Positions 5,889-9,472 of a DNA stretch of 64,000 bases are shown in pieces. Below the pieces are notes generated by a model. The model was not told the origin of the DNA. It did no database searches and saw only the letters and a list, made by a program, of their open reading frames with translations. The position numbers were made by a program, and so were the translations under genes. Each line of letters begins with the position of its first letter. Positions within the stretch are counted from its first letter, which is position 1. The stretch is from a virus, in IMG/VR virus record IMGVR_UViG_3300024346_000008, positions 1 to 64,000 of that record; one strand, 5' to 3'.

Positions 5889-5917
5889 TTGACAAACGAC
5901 CTACACTAGTGTATATT
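5889..5917 (+). promoter_or_regulatory. Promoter of the main tRNA array
   Basis: TTGACA (5889-5894), 17 nt, TATATT (5912-5917), about 40 nt before the pseudoknotted tRNA-leader element. Confidence 0.75.
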
Positions 5918-5957: not shown

Positions 5958-6018
5958 GGGGGTTACTTTCCGAGTTCCCTCGCACAAAACTCCGACGTTT
6001 GGTTCACGTAACGAACCA
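5958..6018 (+). ncRNA. tRNA-leader pseudoknot element, copy A
   Basis: Stem GGGGG/CCCTC (5958-5962 with 5977-5981) encloses the 14-nt loop TTACTTTCCGAGTT. GAGTT of this loop (5972-5976) can pair with AACTC (5988-5992) to form a pseudoknot. A second hairpin TGGTTC/GAACCA (6000-6005 with 6013-6018) ends exactly 4 nt before a tRNA-Glu-like 5' half. Copy B at 9335 has the same loop, tail and 4-nt gap with compensatory changes in both stems. No known family recognised. Confidence 0.6.
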
Positions 6019-6022
6019 CTTT

Positions 6023-6058
6023 GCCACCTTCGTCTATCGGTTAGGACGTTTTTTCAAA
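6023..6058 (+). pseudogene. 5' half of a tRNA-Glu
   Basis: GCCACCT, then the D-arm TCGTCTATCGGTTAGGAC typical of tRNA-Glu, then a T-run reaching TTC where the anticodon should be. The 3' half is absent; an endonuclease gene starts 40 nt later and a complete, sequence-divergent tRNA-Glu(TTC) follows that gene. Confidence 0.65.
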
Positions 6059-6098
6059 GTATCATACTATTTATAGTAAATGATTAACTGAGAAATAT

Positions 6099-6701
6099 AT
6101 GTCAAAACTAGGTGGATATAGAGAAGGTTCGGGAAGAAGTAAATCGGGATATTATAACGGTATTTACTGCGGGTCTACTTATGAACTATGTTGGGTGATA
6201 TACGCACTTGACACTCAAGTAAAATTTGATAGATTTAAAGGAATCTTACGAGGTAATAATATATCATATGTTCCTGACTTTCTCTTGAAGGATGGCAAAA
6301 CAATAATAGAATTAAAAGGATATGAATCACAAGATAGAGTTAATGAAAAAACAAAATTGGCAGAAAGTCTTGGATATACCGTGGTTGTCTTACGAAAAGA
6401 CGATTTAAAAGATGTGTTTGCGTATGTTGCTAATAAATTTGGAACTAAAAAGTTTCATACGTTATATGATGGTTATAAACCAAAATATACTTACACTTGT
6501 TCAAATTGTGGTAACTCATTGACCAGAGACAATCAGTTAAAATCAACCAATGTGTTTTGTTCAAGAGTTTGCGCAGGCCTAGGCAATAGACCGCACACGA
6601 TTTTGTCTAAGCAAAAAGTATTAGATAGGGCAAAAAGATTCTACGAAAAAAATAAAGAATTAATTAATAAAAAACGTAGAGAAAAATATAATAGTAAATA
6701 A
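6099..6701 (+). CDS. Homing-type endonuclease with PD-(D/E)XK core and zinc finger
   Basis: 200 aa. N-terminal GYREGSGRSKSGYYNGIYCGSTYE, then YVPDFLLKDGKTIIELKGY, which gives the PD...ExK catalytic pattern with an upstream Glu. A zinc-finger-like CSNCG...CSRVC lies at about residues 138-165, then a Lys-rich tail. This resembles free-standing phage site-specific nucleases. It sits between a truncated tRNA-Glu and a complete tRNA-Glu, implying a tRNA target. A small hairpin TACTATTTATAGTA lies upstream of the start. Confidence 0.7.
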   Translation: MSKLGGYREGSGRSKSGYYNGIYCGSTYELCWVIYALDTQVKFDRFKGILRGNNISYVPDFLLKDGKTIIELKGYESQDRVNEKTKLAESLGYTVVVLRKDDLKDVFAYVANKFGTKKFHTLYDGYKPKYTYTCSNCGNSLTRDNQLKSTNVFCSRVCAGLGNRPHTILSKQKVLDRAKRFYEKNKELINKKRREKYNSK

Positions 6702-6704
6702 TAT

Positions 6705-6776
6705 GGCGCGTTCTTCTAGCGGCTAGGAAGCTTGACTTTCACTCAAGTAAGACGGGTTCGATTCCCGTACGCGCTA
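6705..6776 (+). tRNA. tRNA-Glu(TTC)
   Basis: Acceptor GGCGCGT/ACGCGCT with a G:U first pair, anticodon stem CTTGA/TCAAG with loop CTTTCAC, T-arm ACGGG/CCCGT. It begins 3 nt after the endonuclease stop and is clearly different in sequence from the truncated tRNA-Glu before that gene. Confidence 0.92.
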
Positions 6777-6782
6777 CTTATC

Positions 6783-6964
6783 CCGTCCGTTTCTATATGT
6801 GGTAGACGTTAAACAAAAACATATTCGGTACATGAACTCCGACAATATTCATGAGTGGTTCGCACCAGCTTAGTGGTGGTAAGGGTTGGGAAAAATATTG
6901 AATAGCTAACAATATTTGGGGAACCTACTAGATACTGTGGAAAGTATCTGACAATCCCCACCCA
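6783..6964 (+). ncRNA. Structured spacer RNA between tRNA-Glu and tRNA-Gln
   Basis: No ORF. Successive hairpins can be drawn: CATGAA/TTCATG, CACCA/TGGTG, AATATTG/CAATATT, AGATAC/GTATCT, with GGGG/CCCC enclosing the last. It also contains AACTCCGAC, which is found in both copies of the tRNA-leader element. A non-coding RNA or a complex processing spacer; the fold is hand-drawn. Confidence 0.4.
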
Positions 6965-6968
6965 CTAT

Positions 6969-7040
6969 TGGCCTATCGTATAACGGTTATTACTCTTGGC
7001 TTTGAACCAAGTAATCGGGGTTCGATTCCCTGTAGGCCTA
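6969..7040 (+). tRNA. tRNA-Gln(TTG)
   Basis: Acceptor TGGCCTA/TAGGCCT with a U:U first pair, anticodon loop CTTTGAA between TTGG and CCAA, T-arm CGGGG/CCCTG. It reads CAA. Confidence 0.9.
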
Positions 7041-7097
7041 TTGTAGTACGGACGCTCTACCGATTAGAGTATGATTAATTTTTCTTTGGGTATACAC

Positions 7098-7253
7098 ATG
7101 AAAGTTTTTATGGTTTTCGCAGTGATGGCAATGACAGCATGTTCCAGTGCAAAGACTGAGACGGTTGCTGATACCTCGGCAACTACCACGGTTGATAGTG
7201 CCGGAGTTATTAATGTTACAACTGATTCGGTTCGCACCGATTCCGTCAAGTAA
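7098..7253 (+). CDS. Small phage lipoprotein
   Basis: 51 aa with a short hydrophobic signal ending in the lipobox MTAC (Cys about residue 15), followed by a Ser/Thr/Val-rich polar segment. It should be lipidated and membrane-anchored. Such short phage lipoproteins act as outer-membrane spanins or superinfection-exclusion proteins; no inner-membrane spanin partner is next to it, so the role is open. The ATG at 7098 is preferred over 7071 because it gives a proper signal peptide. Confidence 0.6.
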   Translation: MKVFMVFAVMAMTACSSAKTETVADTSATTTVDSAGVINVTTDSVRTDSVK

Positions 7254-7254
7254 A

Positions 7255-7366
7255 GCATTTCTGATGAGGCTTTAATAGCCGTAATGTTGGAGGCGGTTTG
7301 CGCGTGAGCGGTCACAAACTGTCAGACTTTGGTCGGCCGGTCGCTCGGCTATCCAACATAAAATGC
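7255..7366 (+). ncRNA. Hammerhead-like ribozyme
   Basis: Three-way junction with hammerhead topology: stem I GCATTT (7255-7260) with AAATGC (7361-7366); core CTGATGA (7261-7267); stem II GGC/GCC (7268-7280); then GTA in place of the conserved GAA (7281-7283); stem III ATGTTGG (7284-7290) with CCAACAT (7353-7359); A7360 at the cleavage position. The A-to-U change at the position equivalent to A13 should weaken or abolish cleavage. About 60 nt inside stem III can form a second pseudoknot (GTTTG/CAAAC, GAGCG/CGCTC). Confidence 0.55.
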
Positions 7367-7385
7367 AGTAATTAAATTTTACGAG

Positions 7386-7453
7386 GAGTTGGTCAGTCCC
7401 TCGGTGAAAGAGATCGCAACTCTAAAGACATGATCGATCACCATGTCACTGAC
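7386..7453 (+). ncRNA. Pseudoknot before tRNA-Gly-like RNA
   Basis: GAGTTG (7386-7391) pairs with CAACTC (7417-7422), and GTCAGT (7392-7397) with ACTGAC (7448-7453), in interleaved order. A hairpin GACATG/CATGTC lies in the second loop. It ends 5 nt before the tRNA-Gly-like gene, echoing the tRNA-leader element but without its conserved loop. Confidence 0.35.
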
Positions 7454-7458
7454 TGTAC

Positions 7459-7528
7459 GCGGTTTTGGTGTAACAGTAGCACGGTCGGCGTCCAGCTGAA
7501 CAGTCCGGTGCAAATCCGTGAAACCGCT
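7459..7528 (+). tRNA. tRNA-Gly(TCC)-like with 5-nt anticodon loop
   Basis: Acceptor GCGGTTT/AAACCGC (7 bp), D-arm GTGT/GCAC, anticodon stem TCGGC/GCTGA closing only GTCCA, where a normal tRNA-Gly would have CTTCCAA. The T-loop is TGCAAAT with an imperfect stem TCCGG/CCGTG. Either a decayed tRNA or a deliberate tRNA mimic. Confidence 0.55.
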
Positions 7529-7532
7529 CTTT

Positions 7533-7605
7533 GGGTCTTAGGTGTAAATGGGTGCACGTCTGCTTTGCAAGCAGAAGGTAATCGGTTCGATACCGATAAG
7601 ATCCA
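7533..7605 (+). tRNA. tRNA-Ala(TGC)
   Basis: Acceptor GGGTCTT/AAGATCC, anticodon stem TCTGC/GCAGA with loop TTTGCAA, T-arm ATCGG/CCGAT with loop TTCGATA. It lies 4 nt after the tRNA-Gly-like RNA. Confidence 0.9.
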
Positions 7606-7621
7606 CTTGACAAAATTAATT

Positions 7622-7712
7622 GGGCGAGGTAACGTGCAGAAAGACGTTTCTGTGGGAGTCACCACACGGTAGCCCCGTGTTTAGGAAGCCGGTTCGAATC
7701 CGGCCTCGTCCA
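7622..7712 (+). tRNA. tRNA-like RNA with abnormal centre, isotype unclear
   Basis: Acceptor GGGCGAG/CTCGTCC and T-arm GCCGG/CCGGC with TTCGAAT are perfect. The centre is about 15-20 nt too long: AACGT/ACGTT or CAGAAA/TTTCTG, then TGTGG-GAGTCA-CCACA, then CACGG-TAGCC-CCGTG. It can be read as a class II cloverleaf with a six-nt anticodon loop lacking U33. A degenerate tRNA or tRNA mimic. Confidence 0.5.
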
Positions 7713-7713
7713 C

Positions 7714-7742
7714 TTGACAAATAATGTTTGATAGGTTATATT
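7714..7742 (+). promoter_or_regulatory. Promoter before tRNA-Met
   Basis: TTGACA (7714-7719), 17 nt, TATATT (7737-7742), 18 nt before the tRNA. Confidence 0.75.
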
Positions 7743-7760
7743 AAAAGAGTACGATACTGA

Positions 7761-7832
7761 CGCGGGGTAGAGAAGCAGTAACTCATTTGGCTCATAACCA
7801 AAAGATCGTGGGTGCAATTCCCACCTCCGCCA
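7761..7832 (+). tRNA. tRNA-Met(CAT), initiator-like
   Basis: CGCGGGG/CTCCGCC with a C1:C72 mismatch, the unpaired first position being the hallmark of bacterial initiators. Anticodon loop CTCATAA, T-loop TGCAATT. The anticodon stem TTTGG/CCAAA lacks the three consecutive G:C pairs of true initiators, so the assignment is not certain. Confidence 0.8.
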
Positions 7833-7840
7833 TAAGATAC

Positions 7841-7869
7841 TTGACAAATGAAGGTCACTAGGTTATATT
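7841..7869 (+). promoter_or_regulatory. Promoter before tRNA-Leu(TAA)
   Basis: TTGACA (7841-7846), 17 nt, TATATT (7864-7869), 10 nt before the tRNA 5' end, so transcription would begin almost at the mature end. Confidence 0.75.
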
Positions 7870-7879
7870 AAAAGAATAC

Positions 7880-7962
7880 GCTCCTATGGTGAAATCGGTA
7901 AACACAAGAGACTTAAAATCTCTCGCTCGAAAGGCTTGTCGGTTCGATTCCGACTGGGAGCA
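7880..7962 (+). tRNA. tRNA-Leu(TAA)
   Basis: Acceptor GCTCCTA/TGGGAGC, anticodon stem AGAGA/TCTCT with loop CTTAAAA, class II variable arm, T-loop TTCGATT. It reads UUA. Confidence 0.92.
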
Positions 7963-7968
7963 CTTAAT

Positions 7969-8040
7969 GCACTGCAAGCATTAATGGTGATGCAGGAGGC
8001 TTTTAACCTTCAGAACACGGATCGTTACCGTGGCGGTGCA
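7969..8040 (+). tRNA. tRNA-Lys(TTT) with atypical T-loop
   Basis: Acceptor GCACTGC/GCGGTGC, D-arm GCAT/ATGC, anticodon stem GGAGG/CCTTC with loop CTTTTAA, T-stem CACGG/CCGTG. The T-loop is ATCGTTA rather than TTCxAxT, and position 8 is A. A second, canonical tRNA-Lys(TTT) is at 24782. Confidence 0.7.
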
Positions 8041-8111
8041 CTGATTATATGTAAACCAGTTGTTTGACATTCTTCTACTCTACGTATATACGTACACAAA
8101 AGGAGAATTAT

Positions 8112-8537
8112 ATGAAAAAACTTCCACCAAAATATTGTTTATATTGTAATATTATGTTATCGTCTGCACATGGCCATCGTAGAGGAGCAAAATATTGTAA
8201 CAACCAATGTCAGCAAGATTATCAATACAAAGTTTATATTGATAAATGGAAGCGCAGAGAAATTGACGGGTCTAAAGGACTTGGAGTATCTGCATATGTG
8301 AAACGATATCTCAGACAAAAATATAATAATAAATGTTCTAAATGTGGATGGAGTAAACCAAATCCAATAACTGGCCAAGCAATTTTAGAAGTAGACCATA
8401 TTAACGGAAACTGGAAAGACAATTCAGAAGAAAATCTAGATCTCATTTGCTGCAATTGTCATACTCTTACAATAAATTATAAAGCTTTGAATATAGGAAA
8501 CGGAAGAAATAGTTATTTGAAATCTTTGGAAACGTAG
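8112..8537 (+). CDS. HNH homing endonuclease
   Basis: 141 aa. Two zinc-binding Cys pairs (CLYC near the N-terminus, CNNQC, then CSKCG) and the HNH core LEVDHINGNWKDNSEENLDLICCNCH. It follows a complete tRNA-Lys and precedes tRNA-Ile(TAT), so again it is lodged in tRNA genes. ATG 8112 has AGGAG 8 nt upstream. A TTGACA (8064-8069) and palindrome TACGTATATACGTA upstream may form a promoter and hairpin; the same block precedes the endonuclease at 1273. Confidence 0.85.
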   Translation: MKKLPPKYCLYCNIMLSSAHGHRRGAKYCNNQCQQDYQYKVYIDKWKRREIDGSKGLGVSAYVKRYLRQKYNNKCSKCGWSKPNPITGQAILEVDHINGNWKDNSEENLDLICCNCHTLTINYKALNIGNGRNSYLKSLET

Positions 8538-8545
8538 TACAATTA

Positions 8546-8620
8546 CCGCCACGAGCCAGCTAGGTTGACGGCGCTCGTCTTATATACGAGAGATGCTCGG
8601 TTCAAATCCGAGGTGGCGGA
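8546..8620 (+). tRNA. tRNA-Ile(TAT)
   Basis: Acceptor CCGCCAC/GTGGCGG, anticodon stem CTCGT/ACGAG with loop CTTATAT, T-arm CTCGG/CCGAG. It reads AUA, a codon often poorly served by hosts. Confidence 0.88.
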
Positions 8621-8624
8621 CTTT

Positions 8625-8743
8625 AAAATATTAATCATGCGTAAAAGGAACGGATAGATACTGGACGAGGGTGGCACCTCACCGAAGGGTTTAAAGTAAG
8701 AGCCAGTCCTAATGTTCTGCCACCAGCCTCTGATTAATATTTT
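8625..8743 (+). ncRNA. Structured RNA closed by a perfect 13-bp stem
   Basis: AAAATATTAATCA (8625-8637) pairs perfectly with 8731-8743. Inside, GGTGGCA (8670-8676) pairs with TGCCACC (8718-8724), and ACTGG (8660-8664) can pair with CCAGT (8703-8707) as a pseudoknot. No ORF. It lies 4 nt after tRNA-Ile and ahead of two small genes; it could be a stable ncRNA or a leader controlling them. Confidence 0.5.
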
Positions 8744-8783
8744 AGTTTTGAAGTACACTAAATACTAAACACTAACAGGAAAT

Positions 8784-8951
8784 ATGACTAAGACAAAAAC
8801 TCTGCAAGACGGTGAATTGGTAAAAACTTCTCTTATTGCCCTACGAGATGAATTTATTCAAAAGAGTGGCAATGGAAGATATGATATTCCATTAAATGAA
8901 GTAATCATGAAAATTAACTCTTGCTTATTTTCAAAGTATCCAGTAATTTAG
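8784..8951 (+). CDS. Small hypothetical protein
   Basis: 55 aa (MTKTKTLQDG...), mixed helix-like composition with no membrane segment. AGGAAAT precedes the ATG. The leader TTTAGTTTTGAAGTACACTA (8741-8760) recurs before the next gene, so the two share expression signals. Confidence 0.5.
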   Translation: MTKTKTLQDGELVKTSLIALRDEFIQKSGNGRYDIPLNEVIMKINSCLFSKYPVI

Positions 8952-8985
8952 TTTTGAAGTACACTAAACATTAAAAAGGAATATA

Positions 8986-9201
8986 ATGACGCGAGAATTC
9001 TTGTTGAGTGGCACAGAAATAGCAGAAATGAATAAGATTAGAGAAGCTGTTAAATATTTATTTGGTCAACACTGTATTAAGCTTGAAGAACATATCTTTT
9101 CTTCTGGCGGTGGTATAGGTCCACACTGTATACACTTTCGACTTGTAACTACCGAAGATGTAGAAGTACGAAAGGATGTTACTGATTATGGTAGTTGGTA
9201 A
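8986..9201 (+). CDS. Small hypothetical protein
   Basis: 71 aa (MTREFLLSGTEIAEMNKIREAVKYLF...). Contains a glycine-rich turn SSGGGIGPHC and a strand-like tail. ATG 8986 follows AAAAGGAA. It shares its 20-nt leader repeat with the gene at 8784. No family recognised. Confidence 0.55.
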   Translation: MTREFLLSGTEIAEMNKIREAVKYLFGQHCIKLEEHIFSSGGGIGPHCIHFRLVTTEDVEVRKDVTDYGSW

Positions 9202-9207
9202 ATATAT

Positions 9208-9281
9208 GGTCCTATAGCTCAGTCGGTTAGAGCAGTGCACTCATAATGCAACGGTCGCGGGTTCAATTCCTGCTGGGACCA
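9208..9281 (+). tRNA. tRNA-Met(CAT), elongator or Ile2-type
   Basis: Acceptor GGTCCTA/TGGGACC, D-arm AGCTCAGTCGGTTAGAGC, anticodon loop CTCATAA with stem TGCA/TGCA. Elongator Met and lysidine-modified Ile(CAT) cannot be told apart by eye. Confidence 0.88.
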
Positions 9282-9334
9282 CTTGGTGAGTAGGTAAGAT
9301 GAAGATGGCTAGCTATTTCTTATCGTCGTCACCG

Positions 9335-9396
9335 ACGAGTTTACTTTCCGAGTTCTCGTACGCAAAACTCCGACGAATGATTCACGATAAGAATCA
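9335..9396 (+). ncRNA. tRNA-leader pseudoknot element, copy B
   Basis: Stem ACGAG/CTCGT (9335-9339 with 9355-9359) around the same 14-nt loop TTACTTTCCGAGTT as copy A; GAGTT (9350-9354) pairs with AACTC (9366-9370); hairpin TGATTC/GAATCA (9378-9383 with 9391-9396) ends exactly 4 nt before tRNA-Gly. Stem bases differ from copy A but pairing is kept. An upstream CGTCG/CGACG hairpin could compete with it. Confidence 0.6.
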
Positions 9397-9400
9397 ATCT

Positions 9401-9472
9401 GCATGTGTCATATAACGGTCATTATCCAAGTTTTCCAAACTTGAGACGCGGGTTCGACTCCCGCCACATGCT
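9401..9472 (+). tRNA. tRNA-Gly(TCC)
   Basis: Acceptor GCATGTG/CACATGC, anticodon stem CAAGT/ACTTG with loop TTTCCAA, T-arm GCGGG/CCCGC. This is the intact GGA reader, in contrast to the short-loop version at 7459. Confidence 0.92.

Follow-up and report, generated by a model that had tools for sequence, protein, structure and literature searches.

Precursors of transfer RNAs (tRNAs) can carry more than the tRNA itself: 3′ETS-leuZ of E. coli is a small RNA from a tRNA spacer, namely a 3′ trailer that is freed from its precursor by tRNA processing. Structured RNAs beside the tRNA islands of phages, such as ROOL, GOLLD and the theta ribozymes, are a recurring puzzle. Theta ribozymes are phage tRNA-associated, hepatitis delta virus (HDV)-like RNAs that are located 3′ of the tRNA and combine a nested double pseudoknot with a defined cleavage site (PMC10879173); ROOL and GOLLD are structured phage RNAs of 600–800 nucleotides (nt), with function unassigned, that occur near tRNA islands (PMC12286853). 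Here we describe an element of about 60 nt that adds to this puzzle a compact, testable family on the 5′ side of tRNAs. It was found in the window, i.e., the first 64 kilobases (kb) of the 164-kb uncultivated phage record IMGVR_UViG_3300024346_000008, whose tRNA array spans ~6.7 to 12.8 kb.

The element shares with theta ribozymes the character of a small structured RNA abutting phage tRNA genes, but it lies 5′ of the tRNA in all members, differs in topology and lacks a conserved junction, and the HDV-type families of Rfam do not match it. ROOL and GOLLD resemble it as structured RNAs near phage tRNA islands, but are unrelated in sequence, fold and size and are not tied to the tRNA 5′ end; their Rfam models likewise yield no match. 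The pistol ribozyme (PMC4604425) is similar in being short and in occurring in phages, and its hairpin loop, which forms a pseudoknot with a junction further on and precedes another hairpin, resembles the arrangement proposed here, whereas the element has no convincing P2 helix, no Rfam match, and a conserved loop 1 of 9–11 nt. Type III antitoxin RNAs (ToxI, CptI, TenpI) are also compact pseudoknots, but form tandem repeats beside, and upstream of, a ToxN-like toxin gene; here we see single copies 3.4 kb apart, with tRNAs and endonuclease genes as neighbors. As with 3′ETS-leuZ, we propose an RNA from a tRNA precursor with a possible role in trans, though the latter is a 3′ trailer without such a fold and the phage element a 5′ leader. 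In Rfam 15 no family scored above its gathering threshold, and searching the element alone to an expectation value (E) of 10 gave only chance-level snoRNA fragments. Nor did we find a description of it in the literature searched, whose coverage largely excludes subscription journals; the element is thus undescribed in Rfam and in that literature.

Two copies of the element

Both copies lie on the + strand, at exactly the positions given by the original prediction, which had been made from the letters of the sequence, and they share two invariant blocks. The pattern ACTTTCCGAGTT-N8-CAAAACTCCGACG matches the window twice, whereas shuffled sequence is expected to match 0.00 times even if 3 mismatches are tolerated; the full 164-kb record likewise contains just these two. 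Each copy stops 4 nt short of a tRNA 5′ end and, as had also been predicted, one of these tRNAs is truncated: copy 1 precedes the 5′ half of a tRNA-Glu. The parts of the two copies, all on the + strand, are as follows:

5958–6018, +, copy 1, element ahead of the broken tRNA-Glu
5958–5962 / 5977–5981, copy 1 stem 1, GGGGG / CCCTC
5963–5976, copy 1 loop of stem 1, TTACTTTCCGAGTT, of which loop 1 is 5963–5971
5972–5976 / 5988–5992, copy 1 pseudoknot strands, the second being AACTC
5993–5997, copy 1 conserved CGACG
6000–6005 / 6013–6018, copy 1 3′ hairpin, TGGTTC / GAACCA with loop ACGTAAC
6019–6022, +, copy 1 linker CTTT (4 nt), up to the tRNA 5′ base G6023
9285–9333, +, hairpin domain upstream of copy 2, GGTGA 9285–9289 / TCACC 9329–9333, inner TAAGA/TCTTA
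9335–9396, +, copy 2, element ahead of tRNA-Gly
9335–9339 / 9355–9359, copy 2 stem 1, ACGAG / CTCGT
9341–9354, copy 2 loop of stem 1, preceded by one additional T at 9340; loop 1 is 9341–9349
9350–9354 / 9366–9370, copy 2 pseudoknot strands, the second being AACTC
9371–9375, copy 2 conserved CGACG
9378–9383 / 9391–9396, copy 2 3′ hairpin, TGATTC / GAATCA with loop ACGATAA
9397–9400, +, copy 2 linker ATCT (4 nt), up to the tRNA 5′ base G9401
9401–9472, +, tRNA-Gly (TCC) after copy 2, with the Rfam tRNA start at 9401

Homologues in related phages

A relaxed pattern search recovered homologues in L037/L045 (a near-identical contig pair), L047 and L055, where such handles denote records of related uncultivated phages; a pattern with loop 1 left free, screened for proximity to tRNAs, recovered L121/L123. 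Together with the two copies of the window, the four further ones from these phages make six distinct members in at least four phages. All of them share the orientation of the tRNA that follows shortly downstream, which is tRNA-Glu (TTC) for copy 1, L037 and L121, and tRNA-Gly (TCC) for copy 2, L047 and L055. Five members are separated from the tRNA by linkers of 4, 4, 4, 5 and 6 nt, whereas that of L055 abuts its tRNA directly, without the usual hairpin. The bases that join the element to the tRNA lack conservation, the linkers reading CTTT, ATCT, CTTT, CTCTAC and ACCAC. Copy 1 has its orthologue in L121, where the promoter is the same and the tRNA-Glu intact. The hairpin domain upstream of copy 2 is paralleled, by inspection, by CGGTAG/CTACCG in L047 and L055; this variable domain is probably peripheral.

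Searching with a covariance model of five members returned the members at E values from 1e-18 to 1e-8, and the next matches (0.017 and 0.12) were antisense to tRNAs. The exact pattern TTACTTTCCGAGTT..CAAAACTCCGACG had no match in viral contigs, nor had TTTCCGAGTTN{2,14}AAAACTCCGA; across 84,980 bacterial and archaeal genomes the latter gave 9 matches, none at a tRNA-bearing locus, which we judged to be chance. A pattern with a variable pseudoknot strand gave no new member, its tRNA-bearing matches (L060, L066, L073) being antisense to the tRNAs. Using blastn against INPHARED, copy 1 had no match and copy 2 only matches at E 8 that cover 33 bases and fall largely in helicase genes. As the element is present in 6 of 34 related records, is found in no bacterial or archaeal genome by exact pattern and is recovered from INPHARED by neither blastn search, the family is narrowly distributed.

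Fold and covariation

The members share an invariant core, UUACUUYCCGAGUU ... AACUCCGACG, around which the paired regions vary. In the five-member alignment (A3), 91% of cells are paired, and 5 pairs are changed on both sides as against 0 on one side only. The count of both-side-changed cells is above all 500 shuffles and above every slid register, and sliding the register by at least one column lowers pairing to 50% or less. To elaborate, the 3′ hairpin of 6 base pairs (bp), with its conserved 7-nt loop ACGWNAM, is strongly supported: two of its pairs are doubly changed, and a single mismatch occurs in one member (L047). Stem 1, which co-varies in part of the family, is supported as a 5-bp helix in three members (a chance of ~0.03 in each of copy 1, copy 2 and L047/L055) and weak in two. 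A closing helix around the pseudoknot, CGTC/GACG, was dropped: copy 2 and L047 can form it, L037 cannot.

The GAGUU/AACUC pseudoknot that had been suggested is available to every member, and an H-type arrangement with an A-rich loop 3 is plausible; it is not proven by covariation, which speaks neither for nor against it since the pairing is invariant throughout. Minimum free energy (MFE) folding of the copies reveals no excess stability (z about −1), a measure with no discriminating power alone, and for copy 1 it favors a nested alternative; the case for the pseudoknot is, therefore, comparative and not thermodynamic. With its co-varying stems, invariant blocks and homologues next to tRNAs, the element looks like a real, selected small structured RNA, much as the original prediction had it, and it withstood the refutation test set out with that prediction.

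Variable leaders at the tRNA-Glu and tRNA-Gly genes

The contents of the two leader slots differ among the relatives. The tRNA-Glu slot is occupied by the element, by a three-way junction (L006, L012), by a module B (L055) or by a module D (L185/L190), and in L188, L193 and L202 it has a promoter and short leader only. Likewise, the tRNA-Gly slot has the element, a module C (L183, L209), a module E (L185) or, in L006 and L010–L013, just a gap of 4–8 nt. The member of L055 is a clean chimera: through the end of CGACG its sequence is that of L047, beyond which it takes on the 3′ hairpin that module C has in L183. Given these varied contents and this chimera, a leader can be missing or exchanged for another, and the core can part from its hairpin. 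More generally, sharing of modules between different tRNA neighbors is widespread in the related arrays. Spacers upstream of tRNAs have a mean folding z of −0.9, and their final helix tends to stop about 4 nt short of the tRNA (at exactly 4 nt in 19% versus 8% of shuffles), with the caveat that in both cases the members are not independent. This is evidence that several unrelated RNA modules vie for the same leader slots and recombine there, and it opens the direct question of whether phage tRNA operons double as small-RNA expression platforms.

Module B (CCGAAGCRCAGTCGAGG, with a ACGTGCAAAA loop) was observed at L055 8778–8830 and L037 2104–2164, ahead of tRNA-Glu in one of the two phages and behind it in the other.

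Proposed function and alternatives

We tentatively favor the following reading: the members constitute a new, narrow family of ~60-nt structured RNAs that phage tRNA transcripts carry on their 5′ side as a leader or spacer, and that have their 3′ end set by RNase P and bind a partner. Briefly, the element would be transcribed along with the tRNA, either from the tRNA promoter or by read-through, and its core would fold as an H-type pseudoknot of stem 1 and GAGUU/AACUC, with a pyrimidine-rich loop 1 and an A-rich loop 3. RNase P, in cutting where the tRNA begins, would then generate the 3′ end of the element, a few nt past the last hairpin. Whether freed or still in the precursor, it might bind a protein, RNA or ligand via the invariant loops, with the tRNA serving as vehicle and processing signal, and not as target. 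Unrelated structured modules would share these slots and recombine with it, making the leader slot an exchangeable cassette site. What comparison shows is conservation, compensatory change, orientation, spacing and exchangeability; the leader function is inferred.

An interchangeable leader is preferred over a self-cleaving ribozyme or a dedicated device for tRNA processing because the junction is variable, leaders are optional or replaced, copy 1 is well formed though it stands before a dead tRNA, and L055 is chimeric. The element is probably a passenger RNA on the tRNA transcript and not the machine that cuts it. For the same reasons, and because these tRNAs occur in relatives either leaderless or behind unrelated structured leaders, the earlier proposal that the element directs 5′ processing of the tRNA or takes its place is not supported.

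Several observations weigh against the favored reading. The tRNA-Glu half after copy 1 should escape recognition by RNase P, so that the 3′ end there would have to arise via another route. Comparison of the conserved loops with phage translation starts revealed neither antisense complementarity nor enrichment. Restriction to the Glu and Gly slots could indicate a tRNA-specific role. On the structural side, in L037 and L121 no more than 2 pairs of stem 1 are contiguous (P ~0.4), the invariant pseudoknot pairing contributes zero covariation support, and the conserved blocks can pair otherwise.

The restriction to tRNA-Glu and tRNA-Gly would be accommodated if the element were a cis-acting leader tuning the output or processing of its attached tRNA, with the hairpin limiting access of the RNase P protein to the leader, or the pseudoknot slowing decay or sensing a ligand. 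The 4–6 nt spacing, fixed in all hairpin-bearing members, and the frequency in these arrays of helices ending ~4 nt upstream of tRNAs are consistent with such a role. We regard it as possible, albeit on the unlikely side: the same tRNAs occur in relatives without a leader or with other folds, copy 1 remains intact ahead of its dead tRNA, and nothing in sequence connects the element with the tRNA. Returning to the interchangeable leader, its broader extension, wherein the leader slots form a cassette site for several unrelated RNA folds that have their ends set by host tRNA-processing enzymes and act in trans against the host or its defenses, is in our estimate unlikely.

A novel small self-cleaving ribozyme that generates the tRNA 5′ end or assists in generating it, by analogy with theta ribozymes at 3′ ends, would fit the conserved loops with variable stems and the pistol-like order, in which the loop of stem 1 pairs with a junction further on, and a hairpin and the tRNA start follow. 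Theta ribozymes do occur in phage tRNA arrays (PMC10879173), and a hammerhead-like core is present elsewhere in this same array (7258–7366). Nevertheless, the linker at the presumed cut varies in both sequence and length (4–6 nt), L055 retains the core while losing the junction-side hairpin, and zero Rfam ribozyme families match the element alone even at E 10. The pistol covariance model (RF02679) with its 10 highly conserved nucleotides, in particular, matches neither copy alone to E 10 nor the array to E 5. The GAGUU/AACUC pairing, which would correspond to that between the pistol P1 loop and the P2–P3 junction, is found in all members, but is invariant and comes without a consistent P2; a pistol-like P2 joining loop 3 to the tRNA start, which we do not claim, would have just 3 bp in most members and is, by inspection, absent in L121. 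To our knowledge, the env25 pistol sequence has no counterpart of the 9–11 nt conserved loop 1. With the junction not conserved and the leaders replaceable, the suggested self-cleavage at the junction is not supported, and we deem a ribozyme of this kind distinctly improbable.

Pseudoknotted RNA within a phage tRNA region, along with the precedent of phage RNA mimics (PMC5449768), might also bring to mind a decoy against host defense, such as a mimic of a type III antitoxin pseudoknot like the pseudo-ToxI of phage PhiTE. We give this very little credence, as tandem repeats and a nearby toxin gene are absent, the element is always tied to tRNAs, and Rfam offers no match to a known antitoxin. 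Least probable of all is a DNA-level or neutral feature, i.e., a recombination hot spot or endonuclease target near tRNAs with incidental RNA structure, which the homing endonucleases and module swapping at these spots might recall but which the compensatory changes with invariant loops and the fixed orientation and spacing already make unlikely.

Neighboring genes and other structured RNAs

The surroundings of copy 1 comprise the following features:

5889–5917, +, promoter-like site TTGACA, 17 nt, TATATT (11 of 12 consensus matches; a consensus match only)
6023–6055, +, tRNA-Glu pseudogene, 5′ portion, broken off close to the anticodon loop; the intact orthologue is L121 7288–7212
6099–6701, +, homing-endonuclease-like gene (DUF559) interrupting the tRNA-Glu

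The promoter-like site, ~40 nt upstream of copy 1, is that shared with L121. Downstream of the endonuclease gene lies a complete tRNA-Glu (6705–6777); the succession from 6023–6701 onward of a tRNA-Glu 5′ half, a DUF559 gene and a complete replacement tRNA-Glu is a signature of homing into a tRNA gene. A terminator-like hairpin in the truncated tRNA-Glu (6031–6048) is no more than expected by chance.

Between tRNA-Glu and tRNA-Gln, 6780–6965 encodes a structured RNA of ~180 nt with a conserved GACGTTAAAC and a closing helix 4–5 nt before tRNA-Gln; absent from Rfam, it recurs with many stem changes in L006, L011, L012, L037, L055 and L121. The hammerhead-like three-way core at 7258–7366, GCATTT-CTGATGAG-GCT..AGC-C-GTAA-TGTTGGA...TCCAACATA-AAATGC, is downstream of a small lipoprotein gene and has no Rfam match; the position of the canonical GAAA reads GCAA in L121 and GAAA in L037. 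A further module, ATGCGTAAAAGGAACGGATAGATA...TTCTGCCACCAGCCTCT (8636–8740), lies between tRNA-Ile and tRNA-Met and has ~90% identity to sequences upstream of tRNA-Gly in L047 and L055. The window tRNA-Leu at 7880 is uninterrupted, and group I introns (Rfam RF00028) are seen in the tRNA-Leu of L011 (12162–12354) and L121 (5959–6149). Finally, two tRNA-like stretches are uncalled by ARAGORN: GCGGTTTTGGTGTAA...TCCGTGAAACCGCT at 7462–7530, which is conserved in L055 (9553–9615) and L037 (3051–3120), and GGGCGAGG...CCTCGTCCA at 7629–7716, an acceptor and T arm with an odd middle that is 99% identical in L121.

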